Positions 3,960 through 64,000 of a stretch of DNA of 64,000 bases are shown here, one piece after another. Position numbers and translations under genes: made by a program. The stretch covers positions 1-64,000 of the forward strand of contig QHYE01000046.1 of assembly GCA_003224055.1 (NCBI GenBank). The letters run 5' to 3'. The notes beneath the pieces were generated by a model. The model did no database searches. It was not told where the DNA came from and saw nothing but the letters and a program-made list of their open reading frames with translations. Each line of letters opens with the position of its first letter. Position 1 is the first letter of the stretch. This DNA is from Acidobacteriota bacterium. GTDB lineage: Bacteria > Acidobacteriota > Terriglobia > Acidiferrales > UBA7541.

Positions 3960-4370
3960 AACCAGACTTCAGTTTCGAACAGCCCACGGGTTCTGACTTT
4001 CCTGGTGGTGCGCTCCGCGCGCCTGCGTTTTTGCAGCTCTTTCCGTCGCAGCCGTCCCGAAGCTTGCCGCTTTTCTGCGCCCCCGAAACCTTGACCTCTC
4101 GATCCCCTAAACTCTTGCCTGCTTAAACTTCCCTGATGAAAGCGCTCTGTTTCGCGGCCCACTCTGGGAAGAACCCCCACCACAGTCTCGACATGGAATC
4201 CCGCGCGGTATTTTCTCTCCTGTGGCCTTCCCTAAGTGATTGATTCTTTGGACCCATTTGGCATCCCGCGATGGACTTGTCGGTGCACAGGCAATTGTTG
4301 AGGTCTGGCCCTGGGTTCTGGGTTTTAGGTGTGCGCGGTGGCCAGCGGCAACAAACCGCAGAGCGAAGTG
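3960..4370. other. Intergenic region between the two signalling genes
   Basis: About 410 bases without a supportable gene; reading frames here are short and lack family motifs. I see no clear terminator or consensus promoter. A GTG at 4329 could extend the next gene by 14 codons, but it has no ribosome site. Confidence 0.4.
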
Positions 4371-7388: not shown

Positions 7389-7777
7389 GGTTGGCCTTCC
7401 TTTTTACTCTTCGCGATGAGGCGGGAAAGACGATCCAGTTCTTCCGAGGAGATTCGCGAAATTTCCCCGCCCAGAAGGGTGGCAACCGTCTTTTCTGTAG
7501 ACCCCTCGAAGAACGTCTCCACCAGGTGACGAAGAGCGGAACGGCGCGCAACGTCGCGCGGTACGGCCGGAATGTACACATAGCGCAGCCCTTGTTCTTC
7601 GTGGCGGACGTGACCTTTTTCCTCGAGCACGCGCAGTTGCGCGCGCACCGTCGAATAGCTTGGTTTGTCGGCCAGCTTGGCGAGCACCTGGCCAACGGTA
7701 GCGCGCTCGAGTTTGTAGAGAACGTCCATGATCTGGCGTTCGCGGCGCGTAAGGGAATGCGGTTTCGCTTTGCTCAT
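7385..7777 (-). CDS. BlaI/MecI/CopY-family transcriptional repressor
   Basis: A 130-residue winged-helix repressor. LTRRERQIMDVLY and ATVGQVLAKL, with recognition-helix sequence PSYSTVRAQLRVLEEKGHV, are typical of the BlaI family; the C-terminal half (ALRHLVETFFEGSTEKTVATLL) is the dimerisation and cleavage region. It is the first gene of a two-gene operon with the M56 peptidase that would inactivate it. Two dyads just upstream (7786-7823) overlap the promoter, so autorepression is expected. Confidence 0.93.
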   Translation of the reverse strand: MSKAKPHSLTRRERQIMDVLYKLERATVGQVLAKLADKPSYSTVRAQLRVLEEKGHVRHEEQGLRYVYIPAVPRDVARRSALRHLVETFFEGSTEKTVATLLGGEISRISSEELDRLSRLIAKSKKEGQP

Positions 7778-7785
7778 TGCTGTGT

Positions 7786-7842
7786 GTGCTAGTTCTCTAG
7801 CACATATGCTAGAAATCTAGCACCTGGGGCCGGGCGTGTCAA
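7786..7842 (-). promoter_or_regulatory. blaI-type promoter with two tandem operators
   Basis: Two near-identical 18-base dyads, GTGCTAGTTCTCTAGCAC (7786-7803) and ATGCTAGAAATCTAGCAC (7806-7823), have centres 20 bases apart (about two helical turns). On the minus strand TTGACA (7842-7837), a 17-base spacer and TAGATT (7819-7814) form a promoter whose -10 box lies inside the upstream dyad. This arrangement is what a BlaI dimer pair would need to repress its own operon. Spacing and symmetry are seen directly; the binding protein is inferred from position. Confidence 0.8.
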
Positions 7843-7861
7843 CTGATTTCATACCCAAGCT

Positions 7862-8872
7862 TCAATTCTTGATTGGAGTATCCGTTGCGCTCTTGGCCGC
7901 AACTTCGCCGAAGAAGGCGAGGACGCGGCGGCGAAATTCCACGGGCTGAAAGCCGAGGGCCGCGGTGTGAAACGCGCCCGGGACGACCCAGAGCTGCCTG
8001 GGGCCGCGGGCGGCGGCGTAAATCCTCTCCGTGTGGCGGCAGGGGAGTGCGACATCTTTTTCGTCACAGATGAGAAGGACGGGGAAGGCGCGCGCGGCCA
8101 CGGATTTTTCCGGCGACACTTCGGCGGCATGGAACCCCGCGAGAGATTCGTCGCGATAGAGAAGCGTCCAACTGAAAGGCGCGAAGAAAGTTTTTCCGAG
8201 CCAGGGATATTTTCGGAGCCCAGCGTAATCGTAAGTTGCTTCGCGAAGGCTTGCGAAAGACGCTTCGGCGACGACTGCTTTGATGCGCGGATCGGCCGCG
8301 GCGGATTGCAACGCAATGCCCGCGCCCATGGATTCGCCCAGTGCGAATAGGTGGAAGGCGGGCCGCGGCACAATCGGCAGGTCCGGATTGATGCTCATTT
8401 GCCTGGTGACGTATTTATGTTGCTCAGAATAGAAGAGAGCGTCGATGATGGCGCGGGTGTCGTTGCGTTCGAGCCAGCCGTAGGTGGCCGCGGGGCCTTC
8501 GCTGGCGCCATGGGCGCGGGCGTCCATCATGACGACGCCGTAACCGGCGCGCAGGAGAAATTCGGACTGGCCGATGACGCCGACGCGGTTATCGGCAACG
8601 CCGTGAAAAAGAAGCACCCAGCTCCCATTGGGCTGGGGCGCGGAGACTTTCCAGCCGCGGAGCATGACGCCGTCAGGGGCGCGAACGTTGAAGTCCTCGC
8701 GATGTCCGCCGGAGGCGACGAAGGAAGCGTCCGCTTCGCGGATCAGATCGGGAGTTAGTTCGCGCCGGATGGGGTGGAGGTAGGCGGGACCGACCAACCA
8801 GCCGGCCAGAGCCGCCAGGAACGGCGGAAAGAGCAGCAGGATGAGAGCAATGCGGATCAGGCGGCGGCGCAT
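7862..8872 (-). CDS. Membrane-anchored alpha/beta hydrolase (serine-peptidase/esterase-like)
   Basis: A 336-residue protein with an N-terminal membrane anchor (about residues 5-27). The alpha/beta-hydrolase fold is shown by the oxyanion strand WVLLFHG, the nucleophile elbow GESMGAG, an acidic residue in LLICDEKDVALP and the catalytic His in PGAFHTAAL. DARAHGASEG and the overall order resemble the BEM46/acyl-aminoacyl-peptidase group. The substrate cannot be read from sequence. It lies downstream of, and oriented away from, the blaI promoter region, with only a short spacer to the stop, and is probably transcribed alone. Confidence 0.85.
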   Translation of the reverse strand: MRRRLIRIALILLLFPPFLAALAGWLVGPAYLHPIRRELTPDLIREADASFVASGGHREDFNVRAPDGVMLRGWKVSAPQPNGSWVLLFHGVADNRVGVIGQSEFLLRAGYGVVMMDARAHGASEGPAATYGWLERNDTRAIIDALFYSEQHKYVTRQMSINPDLPIVPRPAFHLFALGESMGAGIALQSAAADPRIKAVVAEASFASLREATYDYAGLRKYPWLGKTFFAPFSWTLLYRDESLAGFHAAEVSPEKSVAARAFPVLLICDEKDVALPCRHTERIYAAARGPRQLWVVPGAFHTAALGFQPVEFRRRVLAFFGEVAAKSATDTPIKN

Positions 8873-8953
8873 GTGTTGTCTCTACAGAAGGATACGAGAA
8901 CGGAACGGGTGCAGTTCAAGTAAAACTTGAGATCGGAGCAGGAGGGCTGGATT

Positions 8954-9110
8954 CTCCCCACCCCCCGTGTTTTTGAAAGAATGTGATTCCATTGGGGTTA
9001 GCTGTGATTTCAAAGGGCTTATTTGAGCGTCCGTCTTTCAGCGGAGAACTGAACTGCCCTCTACCCCCACCCCCGTGTTTTTTGCAAGTGTTGATTCTAA
9101 AGAACTTAGG
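8954..9110 (+). repeat. Imperfect direct repeat of a C-rich element
   Basis: Two copies of a C-run (CCCCACCCCC with one optional extra C) followed by GTGTTTTT, a GATTC-containing stretch and a GGGG/TTAG end lie at about 8954-9000 and 9061-9110. The second copy is more diverged after the T run. They fall in a gene-free stretch (8873-9342). The function is unknown; the pattern looks like a dispersed intergenic element rather than a terminator. Confidence 0.55.
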
Positions 9111-20943: not shown

Positions 20944-22449
20944 ATGCCGGATGTAATGAAGACGTTGCTGTTGAATCCGCCGAGTTTTGAGAACTTTGAT
21001 GGCGGGGCAAGCTCACGGTGGCCCGCGACGCGTGAGATTGAGTCGTATTGGTATCCAGTTTGGCTGACGTATCCGGCCGGGATGATTCCCGGCAGCCGGC
21101 TGCTCGATGCTTCTCCCCACAAAGTCAATTGGCAGCAGACCGTCCAGATTTGCAAGGACTATGAGTTTCTGATTCTCTACACTTCCACGGTTGGCTTCGA
21201 GAGCGACATCAGGCTCATCCGCAAGATCAAAGAATCCAACCCTGGCATGAAGATTGCGTTCGTGGGGCCGCACGGGCACATCAAGCCGAACGAAACGATG
21301 ATGGCCAGCGAAGACATTGATTTTGTGACGCGCGGGGAGTTCGATCACTCGGTGGTGGAATACGCGCACGGGAAGCCGCTCAGCGAGATTCAGGGCGTCA
21401 GCTACCGCAAAGACAGCAAGATCGTTCACAACCCGGAGCGCCCGCAGTTGCACACCGAAGAGCTGGATGCGCTGCCTTTCGCGACGGACATTTACAAGCG
21501 CGACCTGGAGATCGAGCGCTATAACGTGCCGTTCCTGCTGCATCCGTACGTGTCGTTCTACACCACGCGCGGCTGCCCGGCGCTCTGTACCTTCTGCATG
21601 TGGCCACAAACCATTTCTGGGCATGCCTGGCGGACGCGTTCGACGGAAAACGTGGCGCGCGAAGTGAAACAGGCGCTCGGCCACTTTCCCCAGATGAAGG
21701 AAATTTTCTTCGACGACGACACTTTCAATATCCGCAAAGACCGTGTGATCGATCTTTGCAGCAAGTTCAAGCCGCTGAAGTTCCAATGGTCTTCCACGGC
21801 GCGCGTGCACAGCGACTACGAAACGATCAAAGCGATGGCCGACGGCGGAGCGCGGCTCTTCATTGTGGGCTTTGAATCCGGTGACGCGCAAATTTTGAAG
21901 AACATCAAGAAGGGCGCGACCATCGAGATGGCGCGCAACTTCATGAAGAACTGCCGGAAGGTCGGTATCAGAGTGCACGGCGACTTCATCATCGGTCTCC
22001 CGGGCGAGACCAAGGAAACGATCCAGAAGACTATCGATTTTGCCAAGGAATTGGACTGCGAAACGATTCAGGTTTCCCTGGCGCATGCCATGCCCGGAAC
22101 GGAACTGCACGACACGATGGCAGCGCAGGGCTTCCTGAAAGTGGAAGCATTGGCCGATTCGGGCGGGCATCAACTGCCGCACATCGAGTATCCGCATCTT
22201 TCGAAAGCGGAAATGATGTCCGGGGTCAACCAGTTTTACGATGATTATTACTTCCGTCCCAAGGTCGTGTGGCGCATCGTGAAGGAAGCGCTGTGGGACA
22301 GCAATGAACGGAAGCGGCTGTATCACGAAGCAACGGAATTCCTGAAGCTGCGCGCGGAACGGCTGAAGTGGGCGCAGCAGGGCGGCGAGGATTACAAGAA
22401 GCCGATGATTTCGGTACCCGAGACACCTTCCGCTTCGGCAAACGACTAA
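20944..22449 (+). CDS. hpnJ: Hopanoid biosynthesis radical SAM protein HpnJ
   Basis: A 501-residue radical SAM enzyme with an N-terminal B12-binding-like half (about 1-190; KTLLLNPPSF start, GPHGHIKP) and the core beginning TTRGCPALCTFC, the CxxxCxxC that holds the 4Fe-4S cluster. In characterised hopanoid producers HpnJ turns a glucosamine head group into a cyclitol ether. FIVGFESGDAQILKNIKKG and DFIIGLPGET are typical of this subgroup. The neighbouring HpnI-type genes support the assignment. GAGGGTGAAG before ATG 20944 is the ribosome site. Confidence 0.85.
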   Translation: MPDVMKTLLLNPPSFENFDGGASSRWPATREIESYWYPVWLTYPAGMIPGSRLLDASPHKVNWQQTVQICKDYEFLILYTSTVGFESDIRLIRKIKESNPGMKIAFVGPHGHIKPNETMMASEDIDFVTRGEFDHSVVEYAHGKPLSEIQGVSYRKDSKIVHNPERPQLHTEELDALPFATDIYKRDLEIERYNVPFLLHPYVSFYTTRGCPALCTFCMWPQTISGHAWRTRSTENVAREVKQALGHFPQMKEIFFDDDTFNIRKDRVIDLCSKFKPLKFQWSSTARVHSDYETIKAMADGGARLFIVGFESGDAQILKNIKKGATIEMARNFMKNCRKVGIRVHGDFIIGLPGETKETIQKTIDFAKELDCETIQVSLAHAMPGTELHDTMAAQGFLKVEALADSGGHQLPHIEYPHLSKAEMMSGVNQFYDDYYFRPKVVWRIVKEALWDSNERKRLYHEATEFLKLRAERLKWAQQGGEDYKKPMISVPETPSASAND

Positions 22450-22458
22450 GTTCACAAA

Positions 22459-22887
22459 ATGGCAACTGAGAGAAGACTGAGAATCAAGACGCTGGTCATG
22501 GTCTTGGCGATGGTTGTGTGTGCCAACGCGGGAGATCTGCTGCTGAAGCGCGGGATGACGCAGAACGGGGCCGTGCAATTGACGGGCGCCGGTGTTGCTC
22601 ATGCCTTCCGGCTGACGGTGACCAACGGGACGATTTGGATTGGCATCTTCTTTCTGGGAGGCTTCATGGTCAGTTACATGACGGTACTGAGCTGGGCGGA
22701 CTACAGCTACGTGATGCCGGCGGGCGCGTTCGGCTATGCGCTCCTCACACTGATGGCAGTACTTTTCCTGCACGAATCGGTTTCGCCGCGACGCTGGGTG
22801 GGGGTTGTATTGATTTGCGTGGGAGTTCTCCTCGTTGGTCAGACGAAGCCTCGGACTACCGAAGTGGCAAGCGAGGCCATGGCATGA
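22459..22887 (+). CDS. Small EmrE/ArnE-like four-helix membrane protein (subunit 1)
   Basis: A 142-residue protein with four hydrophobic helices (about 10-28, 52-72, 82-104, 112-130). SWADYSYVMPAGAFGYALL and HESVSPRRWVGVVLICVGVLL are drug/metabolite-transporter half-unit motifs. It starts nine bases after hpnJ and its stop overlaps the start of the next, similar gene (ATGA), which suggests an obligate heterodimer like ArnE/ArnF, the flippase for lipid-linked aminoarabinose. In this setting it may flip a hopanoid-sugar precursor. Confidence 0.8.
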   Translation: MATERRLRIKTLVMVLAMVVCANAGDLLLKRGMTQNGAVQLTGAGVAHAFRLTVTNGTIWIGIFFLGGFMVSYMTVLSWADYSYVMPAGAFGYALLTLMAVLFLHESVSPRRWVGVVLICVGVLLVGQTKPRTTEVASEAMA

Positions 22888-23255
22888 TGCGTGTGATTCT
22901 TGCCCTGGCGGTGTTGATCCTCGGAAGCACCGGGGGCGAGATCGCCATCACCTACGGAATGAAGGCGACAGGAGAGCCTGCGCGGCTGCGGCCGCGTGCG
23001 CTCCTGCAGTTTCTGGGGCGGGCCCTCCGCAACGGATGGTTTTGGGTAGGCGTGCCACTAATGGCGGTATCCTTTTATGCCCTGCTCGTACTGCTTTCCT
23101 GGGAGCCGATCAGCCTGGTGATTCCAGCGTCCGCGCTGAGCTACGTGGTCGGAACCCTGGGCGCGAAGTACGTTCTGCGAGAGCAAATAAGTGCCGCACG
23201 CTGGGCTGGGGTGCTCCTGGTTTGCGCAGGCGTCGCGCTTGTCGCGGCGGGCTAG
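22884..23255 (+). CDS. Small EmrE/ArnF-like four-helix membrane protein (subunit 2)
   Basis: A 123-residue partner of the preceding gene, with four hydrophobic helices. EPISLVIPASALSYVVGTLG and REQISAARWAGVLLVCAGVAL mirror the motifs of subunit 1. ATG 22884 overlaps its TGA stop, so translation is coupled. Together they make an eight-helix transporter; the lipid cargo is inferred from the hpn genes on both sides. Confidence 0.8.
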   Translation: MMRVILALAVLILGSTGGEIAITYGMKATGEPARLRPRALLQFLGRALRNGWFWVGVPLMAVSFYALLVLLSWEPISLVIPASALSYVVGTLGAKYVLREQISAARWAGVLLVCAGVALVAAG

Positions 23256-23310
23256 GGCCCTTTTGATTCTCAAAAGATAGTCATCAGCATCCTAGAAAAA
23301 TGGTGATACG

Positions 23311-23400
23311 ATTTGGGTAACAAGGGGATCCTGGCGAAAGGCAACAGGTCAAGCCTGCCGGCAACCCAGTAAACTCCTTCGGCATCTGAGTCGAAAGTCC
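23311..23400 (+). ncRNA. Possible structured leader upstream of hpnI
   Basis: TGGGT (23314-23318) can pair with ACCCA (23364-23368). Inside, CCTG (23330-23333) can pair with CAGG (23345-23348), or that same CAGG with CCTG (23354-23357), so the two are mutually exclusive. A second stem with AAACT/AGTTT lies just after. I do not recognise a known riboswitch class (GCAAAGCC-like and CGGCAACC pieces are too weak). It could be an unnamed leader or chance. Confidence 0.2.
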
Positions 23401-23486
23401 AGTTTGTGTTTCAAGATTCCTGCGTGACGGGGAAAAATCCCCTCCCATCGGCATTGGCTGGGCAATCGGGATTTGGGGCGATAGGA

Positions 23487-24671
23487 ATGTTGTTGCATAT
23501 CCTCTACCGGATCGTGCTGGTGCTCGCGGTCGCGCCGCTGGCTTACTACCTGCTCTCGTTGTACTGCGTGGTTGGCTATTTCCAGGAGTCGAGAAAATCA
23601 ACACCAGGAACACCCGTGTTCTCGCCGCCGGCGAGTATTCTCAAGCCCGTGCGCGGCGTGGACCACCAAGCGTACGAGAATTTTGCCAGTTATTGCCGGC
23701 TGGACTACCCGGAATACGAGATCATTTTTGCAGTGGCCGATCCGGATGACCCGGTGGTCCCCGTGATTAGAAAACTGCAAGCTGATTTTCCCTCCTGCTC
23801 CATCCGGCTCATCAAGGGAGTGGCGCGTATTGGAACGAACAGCAAAATAAACAGCCTCTGCCGGCTCGTGCAGGAAGCACAGTACGATCTCTTGGTGATG
23901 AGCGACAGCGATGTGCGCGTGGAGTCCGACTACTTGAGGTTGGTGGCCGCGCCATTTGCTAATTCCGAAGTCGGTGCGGTCACCACATTTTGCCAGTGCC
24001 TCAGCGGGGGCCGCATTGCAACGGAGTTGGATGCACTCGGGATGTGCCTGGATTCCGTCCCGAGCGCGCTGGTGGCGCGCAAGCTCGAAGGGAAAATGCA
24101 GTTCGCTTTTGGCTGGACGATGGCCACGACGAAAATGCGCCTGGCGGAGATTGGCGGCTGGGAAGCGATGGTGGATTATCACTCCGATGATTTTGAGCTG
24201 GGGAACCGCATCGCGCGGAGTGGCTATCGCGTGGAGCTGATGCAAAAGCCCGTCTGCATGGTATTTCCACAAGAGTCGGTCGGTCAATTTTTTCGTCATG
24301 AATTGCGGTGGTCCATTGGATTGAAAAATGTGCGTCCAACCGCTTACCGGGGGCTGATCCTGACCTATGGGCTGCCTTGGGCATTACTTGCAGCGGGGGT
24401 GGCCGCGAGAGCGGGATGGACGGGAATCGCCGTGGCACATCTTCTCGCGTACTTCCTGCTCCGCTTCGGGTTGGCGTGGACGACCGGATCGTGGGGGCTC
24501 CATGACCCCGGAACAGGGAAGAGGCTCTGGCTTATTCCACTGCGGGATGCCATTAGCTTTATTGCCTGGGTCAGTGGTTTTTTTTCGGACACGATCGTCT
24601 GGCGTGGTCTGGTTTATCGCGTGCAGAATGGCCATCTCTTCCCCGTGCCTGGTGCAAGCCTCAGGAAGTAA
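23487..24671 (+). CDS. hpnI: HpnI-type hopanoid glycosyltransferase
   Basis: A 394-residue GT21-like (ceramide-glucosyltransferase type) enzyme with an N-terminal membrane helix (about 5-25) and three C-terminal ones. ASILKPVRGVDHQAYENF is the family start, MSDSDVRV the DxD-like site, YHSDDFELGNRI the third Asp motif, and HELRW the terminal QxxRW-like motif. In hopanoid producers HpnI adds N-acetylglucosamine to bacteriohopanetetrol. ATG 23487 is preceded by GATAGGA and matches family length; the upstream in-frame GTG at 23406 is unlikely. Confidence 0.85.
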   Translation: MLLHILYRIVLVLAVAPLAYYLLSLYCVVGYFQESRKSTPGTPVFSPPASILKPVRGVDHQAYENFASYCRLDYPEYEIIFAVADPDDPVVPVIRKLQADFPSCSIRLIKGVARIGTNSKINSLCRLVQEAQYDLLVMSDSDVRVESDYLRLVAAPFANSEVGAVTTFCQCLSGGRIATELDALGMCLDSVPSALVARKLEGKMQFAFGWTMATTKMRLAEIGGWEAMVDYHSDDFELGNRIARSGYRVELMQKPVCMVFPQESVGQFFRHELRWSIGLKNVRPTAYRGLILTYGLPWALLAAGVAARAGWTGIAVAHLLAYFLLRFGLAWTTGSWGLHDPGTGKRLWLIPLRDAISFIAWVSGFFSDTIVWRGLVYRVQNGHLFPVPGASLRK

Positions 24672-24924
24672 ATCGTTGCAGGGTAGGCACCGGCATCACA
24701 AGCTCCGCGAATTTTCTAAAAGCGAGTTCGTAAGTTCGCCAGGCTTCTGCGCTGCCCGCGAATGGTCTTACCGGTCAGCACCCGCCGTTTCTAGGCAGAT
24801 ACCTTTCCTGCATTTCGCCAACAGACCAGTTCGCTGGTGAATTTCCCATTTAGCGGAGACCTGTTAGAGTTGCGGCTAACCTAAGAACGCACAGAGATCT
24901 GGCGGCGATGACGAGCAAACCTGC

Positions 24925-26124
24925 ATGACAATTCACCCAGGGGCGTGGCGCGACGCGGTGCTGCTGCTTGCGGCGGCTCCGCTGGTTTATTACATGTTGG
25001 CGACAGTGGCGGCGCTGCGTTTCTTCCGCAGGGAACGTGCGCGAAAACTTCCGAACTACACTCCTCCCGTCAGCTTGCTCAAGCCGGTCCGCGGTCTCGA
25101 TTTTGGCACCTACGAAAATTTCGCCAGCTTCTGCCGGCTGGATTATCCAGAGTACGAGATTCTATTTGCGGTGAACGACGAATGCGATCCCGCCATGCCT
25201 GTGATCGAGCAGGTCATGGCGGAGTTTCCGGGACGGCGCATACGCTTGCTGGTGGGCGCCGAAGATCTCGGAGCGAACCGCAAAGTCAACAAGCTGGCGC
25301 GGCTCGCCAAGGAAGCACAAAATGATGTGCTGGTGCTGACGGACGGCGATGTCCGTGTCGGCTCGAATTTCTTGCGAGAAGTCGTGGCGCCGCTGGCGGA
25401 CGAGAAGACTGGGGCGGTCACTTCGTTCTACCGCGGGATCGCCGAGCGAAATCTTTGGGCGGAACTCGAAGCAGTGGGCGCATCGGGCGATTTCTTTGCC
25501 GGAGTGCTGGTGGCGGACTGGACGGAGGGCATTCACTTCGGGCTGGGCGCGTCCATTGCGACGACGAAGAAGTGGATCAGCAAGATGGGCGGATTCGAAG
25601 CCATTGCGGGGACCTTGGCGGATGACTACGAATTGGGAAACCGGATCGCAAAAGCCGGTGGAGTGGTGATGCTCTCTCGCGAAGCCGTTTGGACGATGTA
25701 CCCGGCGCAAACGCCGACTAGTTTCTGGAGTCATCAGATGCGGTGGGCGCGAACAATCCGGCTACTCCGGCCGTGGTCCTACGCGGGGCTGCTGTTGACG
25801 CACGGACTACCCTGGACGTTGCTTGCAGCGTTGGTTGCGCCGGCAAGATGGATGGCGGCCAGCTACCTGGTTGCGTATGCGGTGTTGCGTCTCACGATGG
25901 CGTGGACGGTCGGTGTTTGGGGGGTAAGAGATGACGTCTTGCGGAAGAAAATTTGGCTGGTACCGCTTCGTGATGCGTTTTATTTTGTAATTTGGCTGGC
26001 AGGTTTTGGATCAAATCGCATCACATGGGGAAATGACGAATACCTGGTTCGCGATGGCCAGATGGTGCCGGTTCTTGCAGACAAGCCATCAGAGGGAAAT
26101 CCTGCAGCTCCAACGCCCCGATAG
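24925..26124 (+). CDS. Second HpnI-type glycosyltransferase (paralogue)
   Basis: A 399-residue paralogue of the preceding gene with the same layout: N-terminal helix, SLLKPVRGLDFGTYENF, TDGDVRV, LADDYELGNRI and HQMRWARTIR, then three hydrophobic segments. Its acceptor or sugar may differ, since the loop between the DxD and third Asp motifs is diverged. About 250 bases separate the copies, so it may have its own promoter; none is obvious. Confidence 0.82.
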   Translation: MTIHPGAWRDAVLLLAAAPLVYYMLATVAALRFFRRERARKLPNYTPPVSLLKPVRGLDFGTYENFASFCRLDYPEYEILFAVNDECDPAMPVIEQVMAEFPGRRIRLLVGAEDLGANRKVNKLARLAKEAQNDVLVLTDGDVRVGSNFLREVVAPLADEKTGAVTSFYRGIAERNLWAELEAVGASGDFFAGVLVADWTEGIHFGLGASIATTKKWISKMGGFEAIAGTLADDYELGNRIAKAGGVVMLSREAVWTMYPAQTPTSFWSHQMRWARTIRLLRPWSYAGLLLTHGLPWTLLAALVAPARWMAASYLVAYAVLRLTMAWTVGVWGVRDDVLRKKIWLVPLRDAFYFVIWLAGFGSNRITWGNDEYLVRDGQMVPVLADKPSEGNPAAPTPR

Positions 26125-51699: not shown

Positions 51700-51707
51700 C
51701 AATGCAC

Positions 51708-52805
51708 ATGCGACGCTTACTCACTTCGATTTTTCTGACCGTGATCTTGCTGTTGGCTCCGCTCATGGACCGTGCTCGGCAAGCCCCGGCCGCTCCCAAG
51801 CCGCAATCCACTCCTCCGGCACAGTCCCCGGCCCCGAGTCAGGAACCTGCCCAGCAAAGCGGTCAAAAGATCGGCGTCCGCGTCAACCTCGTCGACGTCC
51901 TCTTCACTGTTCTTGACCGCCGCAACAAGCTCGTCCCTGCGTTGGAAAAAACCGACTTCAAAATTTTCGATGACAAGTTTCCCCAGGAAATCCGTTATTT
52001 CAGCAAGCAGTCCGATCTCCCCCTCCGCATCGGCATCTTGCTGGACACTTCCAACAGCATTCGCGATCGCATCAAGTTCGAGCAGGACGCCTCCATCAAT
52101 TTTCTTTTCACCGTCCTCCGCCGCAACAAAGACGAAGCTTTCGCCATGACCTTTGACGACGAGCCGCAAATCATCCAGCCCTTCACCGGCGATGCGGGAG
52201 CGCTTCGCGACCAGATCACCAAAACGCGCGCCGGCGGCGGCACTGCGATTTACGACGCCATCTACGAAGCCTGCGTCAAGGAATTGAGCCACCCGCCACG
52301 GCCTCCCGGCGACCAGCCCGACGTGGTCCGCCGCGTCATGGTTCTAATCAGCGACGGCGAGGATAATCTCTCAAACCACACGCGTACCGAAGCCATCGAA
52401 ATGGCCCAGCGCACCAGCGTCGTCATCTACACCATCAGCACCAGCATCCAGTGGATTTCCCTGACGCAGAATAATGAACCGGCCAAGTCCGGCGACCGCA
52501 AGTATCACCTGACCGATGGCGACAAGATTCTTCAGGAACTCGCGGAAGAAACCGGCGGCCGCTCCTTTTATCCCTATCACGTGGATGATCTGGATCAATC
52601 GTTCCAGGACATCGGCGACGAGCTGCGCAATCAGTATTCGATCGCCTATCTTCCGAACAATTACGTTCTCGACGGCCGCTACCACAAGATCCGCATCGAA
52701 GTCCCAGAACATAAGGGCTACCAGGTGCGCGCCCGCCGCGGCTACTTCGCCAGCGCCAACGCAAACACGCCGGCCGCAACCAGTCCCTCCGGCGGCGTCA
52801 AGTAA
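51708..52805 (+). CDS. Exported VWFA-related protein (Acidobacteria type)
   Basis: A 365-residue protein with a signal peptide (LTSIFLTVILLLAPL) and Pro/Gln-rich linker. The von Willebrand factor A domain carries the MIDAS start ILLDTSNSIRDR, the Thr in GGGTAIYDAIY and the Asp in LISDGEDN. The end (SQYSIAY-like NQYSIAYLPN, YHKIRIEV, VRARRGYF) matches the VWFA-related family known mainly from Acidobacteria. ATG 51708 fits the promoter better than ATG 51702. Its partner and role are unknown. Confidence 0.88.
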   Translation: MRRLLTSIFLTVILLLAPLMDRARQAPAAPKPQSTPPAQSPAPSQEPAQQSGQKIGVRVNLVDVLFTVLDRRNKLVPALEKTDFKIFDDKFPQEIRYFSKQSDLPLRIGILLDTSNSIRDRIKFEQDASINFLFTVLRRNKDEAFAMTFDDEPQIIQPFTGDAGALRDQITKTRAGGGTAIYDAIYEACVKELSHPPRPPGDQPDVVRRVMVLISDGEDNLSNHTRTEAIEMAQRTSVVIYTISTSIQWISLTQNNEPAKSGDRKYHLTDGDKILQELAEETGGRSFYPYHVDDLDQSFQDIGDELRNQYSIAYLPNNYVLDGRYHKIRIEVPEHKGYQVRARRGYFASANANTPAATSPSGGVK

Positions 52806-52884: not shown

Positions 52885-53709
52885 CTAGTAGAAGACTTCC
52901 TTTTCGCCTTTTTCGGCGATGAGGGTTTGGAACGTGGCGACGATTTTATCGCGGCGGGCCATCACGCTTTTCACCTCATCCTTGTTCAGATAGTTTTTGG
53001 TTTTTTCCGCCACTTCTTCGGCTTTGAGGGCTTTCAGTTTTTCGAAGAGCTGGCGGTCGCATTTCACCAGGTTTTTTGGGACGCGCAGGTCCTTGTTCGT
53101 GCGGAAGGCGCGGCTGAAGTCGACGCGCCAGACAGTCCAATCTTCGCCAATTTGAACGTTGGTGAGGTTGGGATCGGTATCGTAGACCAACTCGTCGAAA
53201 ACGCGGATGCGGTACATCTGACTGTTCCACTTATCGGGATCGGGAGGCTCGAGCTTTTTCTGTGCGCGTTCGGCTTCGTCCATTTTTGCTGGGAGCCACC
53301 AACTGAGCGAACCGGTTTTGCCCTCCCATTTGCGTTCGACATAGACCGGCAGCATGTCGTCGAGGCCCAGGAGTTCGGCCAGCCGGTAGGCCGCGATGTT
53401 GTACTTGTAGGAGTCGACGAAATTGAGTTCGACCTTCCCGTTCGCGAACTTCATCTCGGTCTTGTGCTCGTCGATCGTTTGGAAAGAAGCGTCGTGGGTG
53501 ATAGTGCCGTTGCTGAGGGTGAGTAGCGGGGGATGCGTGACGCCTTTGCTCGAGGGCTTGCTCTTGATGACCTGGGCAGTCTGAAGAAACTGCTTGATCT
53601 GCTCTTTGGTCAGCGGAGTGTCGTCGGCCGCATGGAGAGACAACGGAAAAATAAAGCAAGCTAGAACAACGAAGAGAAGTCTCGCCAAAGGCCTCGGCAA
53701 TTCCTGCAC
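52885..53709 (-). CDS. Exported atypical-kinase-like protein (paralogue A)
   Basis: A 274-residue protein with a signal peptide (RLLFVVLACFIFPLSLHAADD). The order GVTHPPLLTLSNGT, then FDELVYDTDPNLTNV (171-185), then WRVDFSRAF (195-202) resembles atypical kinases of the HipA/PI3K/FAM20 kind, where a D-x-x-N catalytic loop (here Asp179, Asn181, Asn184) is followed by a metal-binding Asp (here Asp197). At the place where those kinases usually have an ATP-binding Lys (FK) this protein has Gln (DASFQ, Gln76). The start GTG 53709 has GGAGGA seven bases upstream. It is similar throughout to 59501-60322. The kinase fold is inferred from motif order alone. Confidence 0.7.
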   Translation of the reverse strand: MQELPRPLARLLFVVLACFIFPLSLHAADDTPLTKEQIKQFLQTAQVIKSKPSSKGVTHPPLLTLSNGTITHDASFQTIDEHKTEMKFANGKVELNFVDSYKYNIAAYRLAELLGLDDMLPVYVERKWEGKTGSLSWWLPAKMDEAERAQKKLEPPDPDKWNSQMYRIRVFDELVYDTDPNLTNVQIGEDWTVWRVDFSRAFRTNKDLRVPKNLVKCDRQLFEKLKALKAEEVAEKTKNYLNKDEVKSVMARRDKIVATFQTLIAEKGEKEVFY

Positions 53710-53906
53710 GGGATGTCCTCCGGAAATTGCCTCAAACTGTACTCCCCGGCCACGCGGGGAGACAACACCAATCGCTGCGTGGAAGTTATCGTTTTGCGAT
53801 AGATTCTTCTTTACACTTCCCCTTCGCCGCATTATCCTCTCCCCGCGTGTTCCTTCCCTTTGTGGGGCGGTCGAGACCCAGGCGTTATTCCAACATGGAG
53901 GATGCA

Positions 53907-54275
53907 ATGAAGGTTTTCCCAACTTTACTTTCGCTAGCACTTGCAGGAGCGTTATTTGCTGCCATGCCTGCGGGCGCCAATCAGGCCGCGGCCGAAGATA
54001 AAAAAGCACCGGCTGCGAAAAAAGAGACGAAATGGCAAGGCCACGTCGTCAGAATTAATAAAGACGAGTCGCAGATGGACATCCGCGACGCCAAAACCAC
54101 CATGGCCGGGCATTTGAAGAAGGTCGCCTATGACAGCTCGACGGAATGGACGAAGCTTGGAAAGCCCGGGAAACAAGACGACGTCAAGGAAGAATCGTTT
54201 GTGATTGTTCTGGGCCAGGTAGACGATAAGGGCGTGCTGCACGCGAAGCGCATAGACCTTCGGCTGCCGCGATAA
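53907..54275 (+). CDS. Small exported protein A (possible OB/DUF5666-like fold)
   Basis: A 122-residue protein with a signal peptide (SLALAGALFAAMPAGANQ). The rest alternates beta strands: WQGHVVRINKDESQMDIRD, VAYDSSTEWTKLG, VIVLGQVDDKGVLHAKRIDL. The same order (WEGKVQR, YDSSTKWVSQ, YVICKGTAEKAGEIHATLI) occurs in 58926-59291. It is next to kinase-like paralogue A but on the opposite strand. GGAGG eight bases before ATG 53907 sets the start. Confidence 0.7.
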   Translation: MKVFPTLLSLALAGALFAAMPAGANQAAAEDKKAPAAKKETKWQGHVVRINKDESQMDIRDAKTTMAGHLKKVAYDSSTEWTKLGKPGKQDDVKEESFVIVLGQVDDKGVLHAKRIDLRLPR

Positions 54276-54380
54276 CTTTTTCGAGATGTGATGCGCGGGT
54301 TCCAGCCGCGGCGCATATGCGTTAGCCTTCCGCGCGCATCGGCGGCGGAGCGTGACAGATTTGCTCGAGGCCGCGAAGGG

Positions 54381-57152
54381 TTAAGACTTCGCGGCGAGGG
54401 CTTCCAGGCGGAGTTTCGCGGCACGCGCCGTTTCGCGCAGCAGCGGGTCTGCTTCGTTCAGGCACCCATCTAATTGACCTTCCAAAGATTTTATCCCCAG
54501 GGCTCCGATGGCATAGGCTCCGCACGACTTCAACCACGGATCATCGCTAGCAACGAGTTCTGCCACGGCCTGTTCCTGGCTTTCGATTTTGGCGCGCACC
54601 AGCCGTTGTGCGATCTGGGCTCGTTCTGCCACGGTGATCTTGCTGTCCAACAAAGGAACGAGCATATCTCGCAATTGCGATTTCAAGACGTTATCGAGGA
54701 ATTCCAAGGCATTGTCGTGCACGGCGACGCTCGTGGACTGCAGACCTACATAGGCACTGTGCAAATCGAGCCGGGGATGCAGGAGGTTCAGCAGACGAAA
54801 GATGCGCTCTAGTTCCTGTTGCATGGCCTCCTTCAGTGCCCGCGCGAGAGGATCGACGCCGTCTGTCGTCGCGCCGATGGTGGCCAAAATCTGGTAGGAC
54901 CGGTAGTGCCCCAGAATCTCGGCCGCCAATACGGTCTCCAGCATCTGAGCGTCCAGCACGATCTGGGGATTCAGTCGGCAAAGTTTGTTGAGAGCGGCAA
55001 TAGTCCGAAAGCGCAACGTGGTATCGCCCTGCAGGAGGTTGTCAAGCAGTACGCTTGCGGCGGCTGACGTTCCGAGAGCCACCAGTACGCTGGGAATTTC
55101 TCTGCGTGCTTGGATAGGAACGGCAGAATCACAGAGGTGGTCGCGTAAACCTCCTACAATGGAGTCCCCGAATCGGCCCAGTGCCTGCGCGGCCGCAGGG
55201 GCTAGTCGATGGTCTGCGAGCCGGTCTAATAACTCGGGGACCAGCCGGCGCTTTCGCAGCATTCCGACCGAATGGATGGCCTCGCACACCACGTGAGTGT
55301 CGGAATCGGTAAGAAGCTTGGAGAGCAAAGGATCGAAACAGTCCGGCAACTCTCCGAGGAGCCGGGCAGCTTCCACCCGGTTACGCAGGCCTTCTTCTCC
55401 TGCTTCGTTGACCATCGAGTCCAGGATATTCCGCGCGGCTTCCAAGTTATGAGCTTCGCCGGGCTGCGCCAGAAAGGCGACGACAGCCGACCGGACCGAG
55501 AAGTCGGGGAAATCGCCAAGTTGCTCTATGACCGTCAGAGGATCGATATGTCCATGATGGCTCAAGAAAAGCAGGGCTTCGGTGCGCACACTGAGTTCCG
55601 GGTCCCGCAGTAGTTGTTGCATTTCTGGAACGGCGGCTTTGTCGCTCGCCGCGGAGAGAATGGCGATTGCCTTCTGCCGCACTTCCGGTGCGGAATGACT
55701 CAGCAAAGCCCGTATCCCCGGATGGGCAGCTCTTTGCTGTTCCATTTCAAAAAGGGACAGCGCGTAAAGAATGTCCTTGGGATCGGATGCGGAAAGATTG
55801 TTGGCCAGAAGATCCGTAGTCGACCGGTCCAGCACTGGCGCACTGGCTTGTTCCACATCGAGGCGATGCTGGCTAATGCTTTCCCTCAGCGTAGCGACAT
55901 ATTGTCGTCGTGCGACAGAAACCGCCACAAGCCAGCCGCTAACCAGCAGCAGCACGATCCAGCTCATTTGACGCGCCGGCCAGTGCAGCGAAGTGGCAAA
56001 GATGAGAACCGCTAATCCGGATAGCCCATCGCCCAGCCGCCAGATCACCGTATCGATGAACCATTTCACTTGTAACTTCACACCGCCAGGGATCGGCAGG
56101 TAGAGCAACTCGGCCGTGGATTTGTCAACCGAATAACGCAGCACCTGGTCGCCGCCCCTCAGCGCCACTGCGGAGGCCAGCGTGCCAAAAGCCAGCAGGC
56201 CGGCCGAGCCCAGGAGTATAGTGACGGGAAGAACGAACAGCGCGGTGCCAATCCCGAACCGGCGCAAAAACCTTGCGGTCAACAGCAACTGAAACAACAG
56301 CCCCAGCACGCCCACGTAAAAATAAAAGTCGCCAAAAAAAATGGCCATGGCGTCTTTCTTGACCAGGAACTGCTGACCAATGGCTAAGAACTGCCAGCCC
56401 GTCAACGTCACTACAAAGTTCGAAATGCAGATGACCGCTGCGATGGCCCGCAAATAGGGCGAGGCGAACAACAGGCGCATGCTTGCGAGCAGGTTCCGCG
56501 AGCTTGTTTCCGCGGACTCTCCCGGCTTTCCTTGCGCGTCACCCACCAGCACCCGACCGCTGCGCCACACCAAGATCACCAGCCCGGCGCAGATGAAGAC
56601 GAACAGTGTCATGGCCAGGAGCAGGCTCTCTGTTCCGAACCTCTTGGCAATGGTCTTGGAGAGGAAACCGGCAAAAATCCCTCCCGCAATGGCGCCCCCG
56701 CCTACCATCCCGAAAATCCGCTTGGCCTCGCGGGTGGTCAGGACGTAATTTGCCAGTGTCCAGATCTGCGTGCCGGCGAGCACGCCGAAAATTTTTACCC
56801 AGACGTAGAACGCAGGAAAAACCCAGATCAGATGGGAATAGTAATGGGCCAGCCACCAGAACAGCGCCCAAGTCGCAGCGAAAAATATCATGCTGCCTAC
56901 CAGCAGATCGCGGAAAAGAACTCGCCGCGCGATAACCACGTAGCCCGCAATGACCGCCACCACCAGCACCGAACTGGAAATATCGGCGTAAGCAAGCTGA
57001 CTTGCCCGAAAACGCGACAGGAATAGGGCAGCCCCCGCTACTCCGCCCATTTTGTAGCTGGCGATAACTAAGAACAGGCAGGAGCAGAGAAGAACGCCGC
57101 GTCCCAAATCTCCCGGGTGAACGTTCAGAGCCCGCTCGATCCACCGTTTCAT
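54381..57152 (-). CDS. Nucleotide-translocase-like (NTT/MFS) membrane protein with C-terminal HEAT repeats
   Basis: A 923-residue protein. Residues about 10-430 form some 11-12 membrane helices. LRYSVDKSTAELLYLPIP followed by VKWFIDTVIWRLGDG resembles the region of ATP/ADP translocases (NTT family) that reads FD-x-TKE-x-x-YxPL and then AID-x-x-x-R-x-G. Residues about 470-920 are HEAT-type helical repeats (PEVRQKAIAILSAASDKAAV, LSVRTEALLFLSHHGH, and others). It may move nucleotides or be a related carrier; substrate residues are only partly conserved. GAAGG before ATG 57152 sets the start. It lies 31 bases after the phosphatase gene. Confidence 0.75.
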   Translation of the reverse strand: MKRWIERALNVHPGDLGRGVLLCSCLFLVIASYKMGGVAGAALFLSRFRASQLAYADISSSVLVVAVIAGYVVIARRVLFRDLLVGSMIFFAATWALFWWLAHYYSHLIWVFPAFYVWVKIFGVLAGTQIWTLANYVLTTREAKRIFGMVGGGAIAGGIFAGFLSKTIAKRFGTESLLLAMTLFVFICAGLVILVWRSGRVLVGDAQGKPGESAETSSRNLLASMRLLFASPYLRAIAAVICISNFVVTLTGWQFLAIGQQFLVKKDAMAIFFGDFYFYVGVLGLLFQLLLTARFLRRFGIGTALFVLPVTILLGSAGLLAFGTLASAVALRGGDQVLRYSVDKSTAELLYLPIPGGVKLQVKWFIDTVIWRLGDGLSGLAVLIFATSLHWPARQMSWIVLLLVSGWLVAVSVARRQYVATLRESISQHRLDVEQASAPVLDRSTTDLLANNLSASDPKDILYALSLFEMEQQRAAHPGIRALLSHSAPEVRQKAIAILSAASDKAAVPEMQQLLRDPELSVRTEALLFLSHHGHIDPLTVIEQLGDFPDFSVRSAVVAFLAQPGEAHNLEAARNILDSMVNEAGEEGLRNRVEAARLLGELPDCFDPLLSKLLTDSDTHVVCEAIHSVGMLRKRRLVPELLDRLADHRLAPAAAQALGRFGDSIVGGLRDHLCDSAVPIQARREIPSVLVALGTSAAASVLLDNLLQGDTTLRFRTIAALNKLCRLNPQIVLDAQMLETVLAAEILGHYRSYQILATIGATTDGVDPLARALKEAMQQELERIFRLLNLLHPRLDLHSAYVGLQSTSVAVHDNALEFLDNVLKSQLRDMLVPLLDSKITVAERAQIAQRLVRAKIESQEQAVAELVASDDPWLKSCGAYAIGALGIKSLEGQLDGCLNEADPLLRETARAAKLRLEALAAKS

Positions 57153-57183
57153 CCGCAGAACCTTCTTTCGTAACCTTTCTGTC

Positions 57184-58515
57184 TTATTGCGGTGCGGCCG
57201 TCGTTCCAGAACATATTCGGTCGGGCGGCGAGACGGCCAACTTTTCCGAAACTGTTGTACCATTCCCCATCCCGGGCCCTCCAATTTGAGGCGAAGGCCC
57301 AGCGGAATCGAGAAGTACTACCTGCTGGTCCAGATACACAGCGATGAATTTGGCATAGCCGCAGATTTCCAGAGCTGACGGCCTGCCCCCTGGGTAGTAG
57401 CTGCTGAGCATGCCGGTGTCGATCAAGAACACTTTGTTGCCAAAGCGAGGCCGGATGCGACCACCCTTCTGCACCGTGTGCCCTACCACAACGTGTGTCG
57501 CCTTGTAAGCCTCCAGCACCTTGCTCACCTGCGGCGTGCCCTCTTCGTCGCTCCACAGGTCGTAACCGCGAAACCATAGCGGGCCGTCAACCCGCAAACT
57601 GAGCCAATCTTGATGCTTCAAAAATTCCAGTATTTTGGCGTGGCGTTCATTGGTGGGGGGGACACGCGACTTGAGCTCAGTGATGACCTCTGCCTGAAGT
57701 ACATTATTGACTTCCTGCATAGTAAAGAAGGGCAGAATCAACTTTTCATTCTGCAGATACTGTTTCGAGGCATCAAATTCCTTGACTTCGTCGTGGATCC
57801 GCTTATTCATCGTATCCAGTTTCGTTTTGGCCAGGTCAGGATAAATTCCCCCGTGCAAGAAGATGACCCCATCAATTTCGGCCACGGCGTCATGTCCTCG
57901 CAGCCACGCACCGTATTCTCCCTTTGGACCAAACGCCTCGCGCTGCTCAATGAAGCCTGCCAGATGGCGCGCCATCCACTCTGCCTCCGTCAACTCCATC
58001 GGCTGGGGGAGCTCGGCCAGTAAGGATGCATGACTACCCCTCCATTTCACATACTCCTCATACGCAGCTTTCTGCCGCTTCTCGGAATTGCCGTCGGCAA
58101 AACTGGCATAGTTCACGGGAGTGACGTACCGCAGGTCACCCATGATATTCATCACTTCGTGGTTACCGAGCAGGCCCACGACCCGGCCGCCTGCTTGCGC
58201 CGCTTCTTTCTCGAGCGCCATCATCAAGTCCATGACCTCGCGCGGTTTGGGGCCGCGATCCAGCAGGTCCCCGGTCTGGACGAACGTTGTTTTACCGGCC
58301 GTCCAATGGTTCTGCTTGTCTGTAAGACCGGTGCGCCGGAGAATGGCGACGAAGTCGTCAAAGTCATTGTGGACATCGGCGATGGCGACTACCGATTCCC
58401 GCGATTCCGCTGGAGCCTTTGCTGGTCCCGCCCACGCGAGCACCGCCGACACTAGGACCAGGAGGACGGAAATACAAGCGCGGTGGGGAGGATCACAGAC
58501 CGGAGGGCGGACCAT
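57184..58515 (-). CDS. Exported calcineurin-like (Shewanella-type) phosphatase
   Basis: A 443-residue protein with a signal peptide (ISVLLVLVSAVLAWAGPAKA). All metallophosphoesterase motifs are in order: ADVHND, GDLLDRGPKP, GNHEVMN, LHGGIYP and VVGHTVQKGG. Such proteins can remove phosphate from proteins, including phospho-Tyr. AGGAAA before ATG 58515 is the ribosome site. It lies upstream of the NTT-like gene, close enough for one transcript. Confidence 0.88.
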   Translation of the reverse strand: MVRPPVCDPPHRACISVLLVLVSAVLAWAGPAKAPAESRESVVAIADVHNDFDDFVAILRRTGLTDKQNHWTAGKTTFVQTGDLLDRGPKPREVMDLMMALEKEAAQAGGRVVGLLGNHEVMNIMGDLRYVTPVNYASFADGNSEKRQKAAYEEYVKWRGSHASLLAELPQPMELTEAEWMARHLAGFIEQREAFGPKGEYGAWLRGHDAVAEIDGVIFLHGGIYPDLAKTKLDTMNKRIHDEVKEFDASKQYLQNEKLILPFFTMQEVNNVLQAEVITELKSRVPPTNERHAKILEFLKHQDWLSLRVDGPLWFRGYDLWSDEEGTPQVSKVLEAYKATHVVVGHTVQKGGRIRPRFGNKVFLIDTGMLSSYYPGGRPSALEICGYAKFIAVYLDQQVVLLDSAGPSPQIGGPGMGNGTTVSEKLAVSPPDRICSGTTAAPQ

Positions 58516-58925
58516 TTTCCTGTCTCCTGTAGGCAAGCAGCAGAATTTTAGCGAGAACATTGCGTTCCGCAAGGCATCCTCGATTGCGGTGCATCTTAGG
58601 CTGCCAGAGTCGCACAAGTCAACAAGCTGAAAATACGCATGGAGGAACCACGCAAATACGGCCAAGGCCGGCAAGCAGGCGGCCTGCGGTCCGTCGGAAC
58701 AACTCCATCTTCACAGACCAAGGGTGTCCAATCAGAAATAAGAACGCTCTCACTTCTCTTGGACCAAAACGTCGGTACGGTCACTTGTCGCGGCAGTTCG
58801 CGGCTGGCCACACGGAAAGGCCCACTCGCGGAGCCATCACATGAAGGCTCCGCGAGCTGGTTACTGCGTGAACTTCGCTTACAACCGATCGGCGTGTTCC
58901 AACTTGCGTTACAGACCGAACTGGT
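58516..58925. other. Intergenic region upstream of the phosphatase
   Basis: About 410 bases with no supportable gene. It should contain the promoter for the minus-strand phosphatase/NTT-like pair, but I see no clear -35/-10 pair or palindrome. Confidence 0.35.
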
Positions 58926-59291
58926 CTACTGGGGGGAGTGGGAGAGCCGCTTAGAGATTAGCGTCGCGTGGATTTCGCCGGCCTTCTCTGCAGTGCCCTT
59001 GCAAATCACGTAGTCCCCGTCTTTAACCTGGCTGGCGTCAATGTCGTTGACCTTCTTGTCGCCATGATACTGACTGACCCATTTCGTCGAGCTGTCGTAC
59101 ACACAGCTCTTCTCTAAAGTCGAGCCCGACTTACGAACAGTCAGAGAAGACTGCTCCTTACTACTTCTTTGAACTTTACCTTCCCAGCGCGCCTCCTTCG
59201 GCTTGGCAGGAGCCTTTTGCGCGAACACCGCCATTGCCAGCGGGAAGGTAAGTACCAAAGCGAACAGCACCGTGAGTTGCTTCTTCAGCAT
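58926..59291 (-). CDS. Small exported protein B (paralogue of 53907)
   Basis: A 121-residue protein with a signal peptide (LFALVLTFPLAMAVFAQ). The mature part repeats the pattern of protein A: WEGKVQRSSKEQSSLTVR, CVYDSSTKWVSQY, VKDGDYVICKGTAEK, IHATLI. AAGGAG before ATG 59291 is a good ribosome site. It lies between the phosphatase and kinase-like paralogue B, all on the minus strand. Confidence 0.7.
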   Translation of the reverse strand: MLKKQLTVLFALVLTFPLAMAVFAQKAPAKPKEARWEGKVQRSSKEQSSLTVRKSGSTLEKSCVYDSSTKWVSQYHGDKKVNDIDASQVKDGDYVICKGTAEKAGEIHATLISKRLSHSPQ

Positions 59292-59500
59292 TTTTTCTCT
59301 CCTTATTCACCGGGATCACCGGGAAGATGTGATGCGTAGCACGAACACTAGACCCAGGAGACCAAAAAGTGCAAGCTATTAAACTTGGGCTTCCAATCCA
59401 ACATCTCCGCTGCATCCCACGTACTGCCCCTGCCAGAACCTGATCCCGAAGAGCTGCTCACGCAGTGGAGCGGTGCAGTTTACTTCCGTGGCCAACTAAT

Positions 59501-60322
59501 TCAGTACAACACTTCGCTCTCACCTTTTTCAGCGATCAGCTTCTGGAAGTGCGCCACCATCTCGTCCCGTCGCGCCATCACCGCCTTCACCTCATCCTTG
59601 CTGAGATAGTGGCTGGTTTTTTCTGTTAGCGCGTTCGCGTCCAGCGCCTTCAGTTTCTCCAGCAATTGCCGGTCGCAGTGTACCAACTCTTTAGCAGGGT
59701 CTTTCAGATCCTTGCTGAGGCGAAATGCGCGGCCGAAATCAATCCTCCAGATCTTCCAATCCTCACCGATTAGCACGTTGGTCAGATTGACATCAGTATC
59801 GGCGACCAATTGATCGAAGACCCGAATCTTGTACATCTGATGGTTCCAGGCCTCCGGATCCGGCGCCGTTAATTTCTGCTTGTGGCGCTCCACTTCATCC
59901 ATCTTCACCGGCAACCACCAACTGAGCGAGCCCGGATTCCCTCCCCATTTGCGTTCGACGTATACCGGCAGCATGTCGTCCATGCCAATCAACTCAGCCA
60001 GCGCATAAGCTGCGATGTTGTATTTGTAAGAGTCCACGAAGTTTATTTCGGTGCCCGAGCCAAGCTGCTTCTGGGCTTTGTGTTCATCAAGACCTTGGAA
60101 AGAAGCGTCGTGAGTCACGGTGCCGTCGGAAAGCGTAAGCCGCTTAGTGTTAGTGATGCCCTTCTTGGCATCCTTACTGCCCACCACCTTAGCGGTGAGA
60201 AGGAACTGCTTAATCTGCTCCTTGGTCAGGGTCGGCTCGTCCGCAGCAACGGCGAAGAGTCCGCAAGTCAGATACACCACCGCGACAAGAATCAAACGCC
60301 AGCGCAGATGAAGTGGGTTCAT
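59501..60322 (-). CDS. Exported atypical-kinase-like protein (paralogue B)
   Basis: A 273-residue protein very similar to 52885-53709. The signal peptide is followed by TLTKEQIKQFLLTAKVV, GITNTKRLTLSDGT, FDQLVADTDVNLTNVLI (169-185) and IWRIDFGRAF (191-200); here the metal-site Asp195 is followed by Phe-Gly, as in a DFG motif. The Lys-to-Gln change (DASFQ, Gln75) is shared with paralogue A. GGAGGA before ATG 60322 is a strong ribosome site. Confidence 0.7.
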   Translation of the reverse strand: MNPLHLRWRLILVAVVYLTCGLFAVAADEPTLTKEQIKQFLLTAKVVGSKDAKKGITNTKRLTLSDGTVTHDASFQGLDEHKAQKQLGSGTEINFVDSYKYNIAAYALAELIGMDDMLPVYVERKWGGNPGSLSWWLPVKMDEVERHKQKLTAPDPEAWNHQMYKIRVFDQLVADTDVNLTNVLIGEDWKIWRIDFGRAFRLSKDLKDPAKELVHCDRQLLEKLKALDANALTEKTSHYLSKDEVKAVMARRDEMVAHFQKLIAEKGESEVLY

Positions 60323-63527: not shown

Positions 63528-64000
63528 TCAGCCCTTCGGCGCGTAGTAGCCTTTGCGGGCGAGCACCTTCAAGTCGTGATTGGCAGTCTCGACTTTGATC
63601 TTGCGGAATTTGCCGTCGCGCTGGCTGTTGGTCGGGTAGTAGCCCAGCGTGTACTGGCTGCGCAGTTCCGCCGAAATCTCATCGAACGCTTCCATGAGCT
63701 TTTTCTCCGAGCTTGCGTTGAGCACCCGGCCGCCCGTTTCTTCCGCAAGTTTCTTTGCGGCGCCGGTATTCGCTCCAAAGCGCGGATCGGCAACGAGGAT
63801 GACATGTATTACCGTGTCCGTGCGTTGCGCGGCTTCGATGGCCTCTTCAATGCGTACTTTGCTGCCTTCATCCTGGGCGTCCGTGACGATCACCACCGCT
63901 TTCCGTCCCGCTTCCGTATTCAGTTTTTCGCCGCAGGCCAGATAGATCGCATCATAGAGCGCCGTGCCGGTGATCTGCCGCGACCCCACCGGGCCTGGAT
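63528..64000 (-). CDS. VWFA-related protein, C-terminal part (gene runs off the right edge)
   Basis: At least 157 residues are in the window. GTALYDAIYLAC, VVIVTDAQDEGS, KLAEETGGRVLN and SQYTLGYYPTNSQRDGKFRKI match the C-terminal half of the VWFA-related family, as in 51708-52805 (LAEETGGRSFY there). The signal peptide and MIDAS start would lie beyond 64000. It is convergent with DUF899. Confidence 0.85.
   Translation of the reverse strand, partial: PGPVGSRQITGTALYDAIYLACGEKLNTEAGRKAVVIVTDAQDEGSKVRIEEAIEAAQRTDTVIHVILVADPRFGANTGAAKKLAEETGGRVLNASSEKKLMEAFDEISAELRSQYTLGYYPTNSQRDGKFRKIKVETANHDLKVLARKGYYAPKG

Follow-up and report, generated by a model that had tools for sequence, protein, structure and literature searches.

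The kinases nearest to the exported proteins analysed here are Fam20A, Fam20B and Fam20C, a group described as metazoan (PMC9758233, PMC7948968). CotH, of the Bacillus spore coat, is a further atypical kinase located outside the cytoplasm. Exported kinases pose an energy problem, because ATP is generally considered absent from the periplasm of bacteria. Proteins in which a nucleotide-translocase (NTT) domain is followed by HEAT repeats are common in free-living bacteria and functionally uncharacterised (Major et al. 2017, PMC5381601), and the characterised bacterial Shelph phosphatase is a strict tyrosine phosphatase (PMC5658161). Here we analyse a locus carrying Fam20-like proteins, an NTT-HEAT protein and a Shelph-type phosphatase at positions 52885-60322 of a 64,000-nucleotide stretch from an Acidobacteriota bacterium (contig QHYE01000046.1, positions 1 to 64,000; hereafter the window). 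Each family is known singly, but the system, to judge from the papers searched, is not. The preliminary description of this DNA knew of no described system with this set, and no description of it was found in the open-access PMC papers searched.

Six genes fill the region according to the open reading frame (ORF) calls of the window, with starts chosen as the best by Shine-Dalgarno sequence; the coordinates given previously were confirmed. Two encode the kinase-like proteins A1 (52885-53709, minus strand, 274 aa, GTG start, Shine-Dalgarno GGAGG) and A2 (59501-60322, minus strand, 273 aa), which are 69-70% identical. Between them lie the small proteins B1 (53907-54275, plus strand, 122 aa) and B2 (58926-59291, minus strand, 121 aa), about 35% identical and matched by one hidden Markov model (HMM), the NTT-HEAT gene (54381-57152, minus strand, 923 aa) and the phosphatase gene (57184-58515, minus strand, 443 aa). 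A1, A2, B1, B2 and the phosphatase begin with a signal-peptide-like N-terminus by a simple heuristic of our own (not SignalP), which found none in six cytosolic-type window proteins. The two paralogous pairs of putatively secreted proteins, the nucleotide-translocase-like membrane protein and the exported calcineurin-like phosphatase named in the preliminary description were thus all recovered. The genome as a whole has only a pair of kinase-like genes and a single NTT gene, every one of them inside these 7.5 kb; because the set also recurs across the phylum, the grouping is far beyond chance.

We lean towards reading the locus as a reversible phosphorylation module acting outside the cytoplasm, made of an exported kinase, an exported phosphatase and a nucleotide carrier. 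The A proteins would put nucleotide phosphate on an envelope substrate, some copies perhaps only binding or sensing nucleotide, and the Shelph-type phosphatase would take the phosphate off. The NTT-HEAT protein would supply or exchange adenine nucleotide across the inner membrane, its HEAT part probably being cytoplasmic. The analysis supports the joint function proposed in the preliminary description; we infer that function itself, together with catalysis, ATP supply by the NTT, the direction of its transport and the solute carried, a periplasmic site of action, the target molecules of the kinase and the role of the B proteins.

Computation shows the A proteins to be homologues of Fam20 with a kinase fold. 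The preliminary description had made its kinase reading depend on such a fold in structure prediction, and the AlphaFold2 model of A2, built from 28 aligned sequences, is a confident kinase fold (predicted local distance difference test, pLDDT, 91.7; predicted template modelling score, pTM, 0.89). Foldseek ranks 1-13 with this model were all Fam20, as were all of the top nine entries. The structural Z score was 20.1 against hydra Fam20 (5xoo; 3.8 Å over 234 residues) and 19.2 against DrFam20C1 (3.1 Å, 229 residues), with lower values for PI4K-II (17.6), CtkA (15.5), HipA (12.1) and CotH (10.8). HipA was also considered and stands structurally below Fam20, PI4K-II and CtkA; the profile HipA_2 reached 1e-5 at best among 16 relatives (21.3 bits against 27 for the member shown).

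At the sequence level, the profile A5, built on 16 diverse relatives found in the phylum, ranked all six Fam20 sequences of the PDB first (E 6.7e-15 to 1.6e-8: Fam20A 6.7e-15, Fam20C 1.9e-10, ceFam20 1.4e-9, hydra Fam20 1.6e-8), followed by PI4K-II (3e-4), and the window-class profile of A1 was tied to A5 at E 8.9e-74. The window-class profile by itself gave no Fam20 match in the PDB, and direct PDB sequence searches with A1 and A2 gave nothing relevant, Fam20 being reached only through the broader profile. Direct searches of Pfam, PHROGs and PADLOC with A1 and A2 gave nothing above cut-off, and single sequences yielded weak leads only (TIGR03843 5e-6, Kdo kinase, ABC1). Among NCBIfam families, TIGR03843/SCO1664 matched best (1.4e-15 with the top-scoring alignment member, over the catalytic-loop region); A2, however, scored 26 against 172 bits, far under the curated cut-off of a family named as hypothetical only. 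A plasmid search produced one weak match, in Microbacterium.

Like Fam20, the A proteins are putatively exported, have counterparts of its catalytic Asp, of its metal-binding Asp and of its ion-pair acid, and show collinear C-terminal helices. The A proteins differ, however, in being bacterial, in their tie or fusion to a phosphatase and in their link to an NTT. In the Pfam Fam20C family (PF06702), A1 and A2 were not reported, a fused relative scored 13 bits against a cut-off of 26.8 and the best of the 16 members had an E value of 0.0017. The modelled, mature chain of A2 has one Cys, so it cannot form the Fam20 disulfides. We call the A proteins Fam20-like, and not members of Fam20, because they fall short of the Pfam cut-off, of the disulfides and, in the window, of the Lys discussed below.

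The preliminary description had staked its reading on the neighbourhood being kept in relatives. It is kept in other Acidobacteriota, as kinase-phosphatase fusions, as a set recurring in varied order and as a near-obligate co-occurrence with the NTT; the kinase, phosphatase and NTT families are conservedly associated. Among 26 window-like loci, the phosphatase was present in 18, the NTT in 20 and both in 17, with varying order and orientation; since some of these loci lie on short contigs, the absence of a gene is not always informative. Forty further loci, picked from the rest of the phylum by the kinase alone, had the phosphatase in 22, the NTT in 18 and both in 17. In 12 of these 40, belonging to eight families (f1, f2, f15, f36, f40, f52, f57 and f71), phosphatase and kinase form one ORF. 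A search of neighbour families across the phylum revealed no further recurring neighbour of the kinase. In one locus (L035), the phosphatase (1074-2458) and the NTT (2469-5226) are each split across two frames, possibly by sequencing error or decay in this metagenome-assembled genome. In another (L022), a protein of the Omp85 superfamily and a frame of 555 aa with no clear Pfam match (5942-8983) separate a phosphatase-kinase fusion from the NTT.

Of 396 Acidobacteriota genomes sampled, 80 had the kinase, 125 the NTT and 86 the phosphatase. An NTT accompanied the kinase in 79 of its 80 genomes and was present in 46 of the 316 that lack the kinase (odds ratio 464, p 6e-49); for the phosphatase the counts were 65 and 21 (p 4e-41), in statistics that ignore phylogeny. 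As a control, CotH (54 genomes), which belongs to a separate family, was weakly associated with the NTT (odds ratio 2.7). An exported kinase would need nucleotide, and the near-obligate presence of the NTT agrees with this. The fusions and the rearranged gene orders are evidence independent of these statistics.

Next, we consider the active site of the A proteins, with A2 residues numbered along the modelled chain (residue 1 is codon 60253-60251) and mapped to Fam20 from alignments and from PMC5865150 and PMC5413348. Asp154 (codon 59792-59794, minus strand) aligns with the Asp in the DRHHYE-type motif of Fam20, and this catalytic Asp and Asn159 are nearly invariant across 93 aligned domains. 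The metal-binding Asp172 (59738-59740, minus strand), equivalent to Asp478 of Fam20C, is Asp in all 93. The ion-pair acid of Fam20 lies in the loop preceding helix C (Asp152 in hydra, hmFam20; Glu213 in ceFam20; PMC5865150); at its equivalent, Asp74, 89 of the 93 domains have Asp or Glu. At the position of Fam20C Lys271, 36 of the 93 domains have Lys and 10 have Arg, whereas the class of the window has Gln (Gln53 in A1 and A2; codon in A2 60095-60097, minus strand). In a quick tree this Gln class groups as a single clade with 45 members (support 98), in which class-specific His48 and Trp112 accompany the residues above and the helix-C Glu is replaced throughout by Asn (or Asp), Asn79 in A2. 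Asn79 was examined as a lost ion-pair acid and ruled out, because in Fam20 that role sits on the acid of the preceding loop, retained as Asp74 (PMC5865150). The K271A mutant of Fam20C is unable to bind ATP (PMC5413348), and the Gln at this position therefore leaves the activity of A1 and A2 uncertain.

The Gln-class proteins might accordingly be pseudokinases, or proteins of altered chemistry, whose role would be to bind nucleotide and to control the phosphatase or some other enzyme, leaving kinase activity to the Lys-class members of other families. We regard this as possible but doubtful. The loss of both Lys and the helix-C Glu is common to the whole class, and a separate clade without the catalytic Asp (families f52, f59 and f73) lies next to the phosphatase or in fusion with it, alongside intact Lys-class tandem copies. 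The regulation of Fam20C by Fam20A is a precedent (PMC5413348, PMC7948968), and the pairing of that clade with intact copies recalls this pseudokinase-kinase pair. On the other hand, Asp74, Asp154, Asn159 and Asp172 are each retained in 45 of 45 Gln-class members, unlike in the clade without the catalytic Asp, which argues against simple decay, and the genome of the window carries Gln-class copies only and yet has the phosphatase and the NTT adjoining them. In eight loci of families f52, f59 and f73, two to four kinase-like copies were seen, the phosphatase-fused or adjacent copy lacking the catalytic Asp and its neighbours keeping it.

The phosphatase matched the psychrophilic phosphatase I of Shewanella (2zbm, 1v73; E 2.2e-30) and Pfam Metallophos. 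Asp7, His9, Asp43, Asn78, His79, His181 and His306, invariant among its relatives (alignment A4), correspond to the metal-ligand motifs of the PPP family, and we assign it to the Shelph type on both grounds. It differs from Shelph in being putatively exported and in being the partner of, or fused to, a kinase-fold protein. The count of four signal-like N-termini among 26 phosphatases is an artefact, since the HMM takes in the region of the signal peptide and the count covered just the residues ahead of the HMM match. A second Shelph gene in the same genome (contig C136, 40264-41382) has no kinase-like, NTT or B gene in the 16 kb of sequence examined around it.

Rather than a protein, the target of the kinase could be an envelope glycan or lipid, as for the xylose kinase Fam20B or PI4K-II, with the phosphatase removing the group or acting elsewhere. 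The top structural match, hydra Fam20, is a Fam20B-like glycan kinase (PMC5865150), though it is tied with Fam20C; PI4K-II comes next after Fam20, and the A family has weak profile matches to Kdo kinase and to PI3/PI4 kinases. We consider this target unlikely all the same, as the phosphatase comes from a family of protein phosphatases, represented among characterised bacterial enzymes by the strict tyrosine phosphatase cited above, and no family of glycan or lipid genes is a recurrent neighbour.

The fourth component has a TLC membrane domain (Pfam 4.9e-19, 68.9 bits against a cut-off of 21) followed by HEAT repeats (HEAT_2, 6e-18); its solved relatives are AtNTT1 (9j3j, 3.7e-15) and CpNTT1 of C. 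pneumoniae (9j3n, 9.4e-14). At E245, E385 and K527 of AtNTT1, which we take to be the critical residues by mutagenesis and which were located by counting in a printed alignment, the window protein has Lys, Gly and Asp, a pattern common to the window-like loci with small variations. ATP transport by this protein is thus proposed from its family and context. In the more distant module NTTs, Asp or Glu is often found at the E385 position and, in several, Lys at K527. Single-domain NTT genes (about 470-520 aa) stand beside NTT-HEAT genes in several clusters of families f52, f59 and f73. The protein resembles described NTT-HEAT proteins in its domain order and differs in adjoining an exported kinase and phosphatase, whereas the portion of PMC5381601 used here mentions only a neighbouring cyclic-nucleotide (cNMP)-binding domain, in some cases.

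It is conceivable, if improbable, that the NTT-HEAT protein does not supply ATP. It would then import nucleotides or another solute, or serve as sensor or scaffold, and its link to the kinase would be one of nucleotide scavenging or signalling. The unconserved AtNTT1 positions, the 46 kinase-negative genomes that have an NTT and the uncharacterised function of NTT-HEAT proteins (PMC5381601) speak for this. An NTT in all but one of the kinase-positive genomes, however, fits an extracytoplasmic need for nucleotide better than an unrelated role, and several distant module NTTs do keep the acid and the Lys.

Mere inherited synteny of unrelated genes is most improbable: the relatedness of many genomes in the comparison and the lack of a phylogenetic correction in the co-occurrence test speak for it, but the 12 fusions and the differing orders and orientations contradict it, and no other neighbour recurs.

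Against a reversible phosphorylation module we weigh the following points. About half of the kinase loci sampled across the phylum show neither an NTT nor a phosphatase gene inside approximately 9 kb. The activity of A1 and A2 is uncertain, the window NTT has none of the three AtNTT1 residues and its family is functionally uncharacterised (PMC5381601). The putative signal peptides come from a simple heuristic, and the co-occurrence figures are uncorrected for phylogeny, though the association of kinase and NTT holds in 28 of the 29 families having the kinase. With these points in the balance, we hold it an even question whether Acidobacteriota in general run a dedicated envelope phosphorylation, in which Fam20-like kinases and a phosphatase, often fused to them, would depend on ATP from an NTT-HEAT carrier.

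The B proteins were analysed through B2, whose model is an OB-fold (pLDDT 86.1) resembling those of CusF, CcmE and OB proteins of the SSB type (best Foldseek E 0.004; Z 9.6); B1 is placed in the same family by homology. Since B was found at 21 of the 26 window-like loci but was absent from all 40 loci sampled in the rest of the phylum, it appears to be an accessory of the window-like version only, where it may act as substrate, scaffold or regulator.

Two further features of the window were noted by eye. VWFA-like proteins, alike in appearance, flank the region (51702-52805 and 63528-63998), with BLAST matches near some related loci. At 20944-26124, a radical-SAM protein and two glycosyltransferase-like proteins are clustered, recalling hopanoid-associated genes.

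On these results the Fam20 kinases, supposedly metazoan, have relatives across a large phylum of bacteria. As a nucleotide-carrier gene accompanies the kinase in almost every case, the energy problem of the periplasm becomes testable, and the kinase-phosphatase fusion proteins are directly assayable. If the proposed module is real, it would be a bacterial counterpart of the phosphorylation in the animal secretory pathway and would give NTT-HEAT proteins a physiological role in free-living bacteria.

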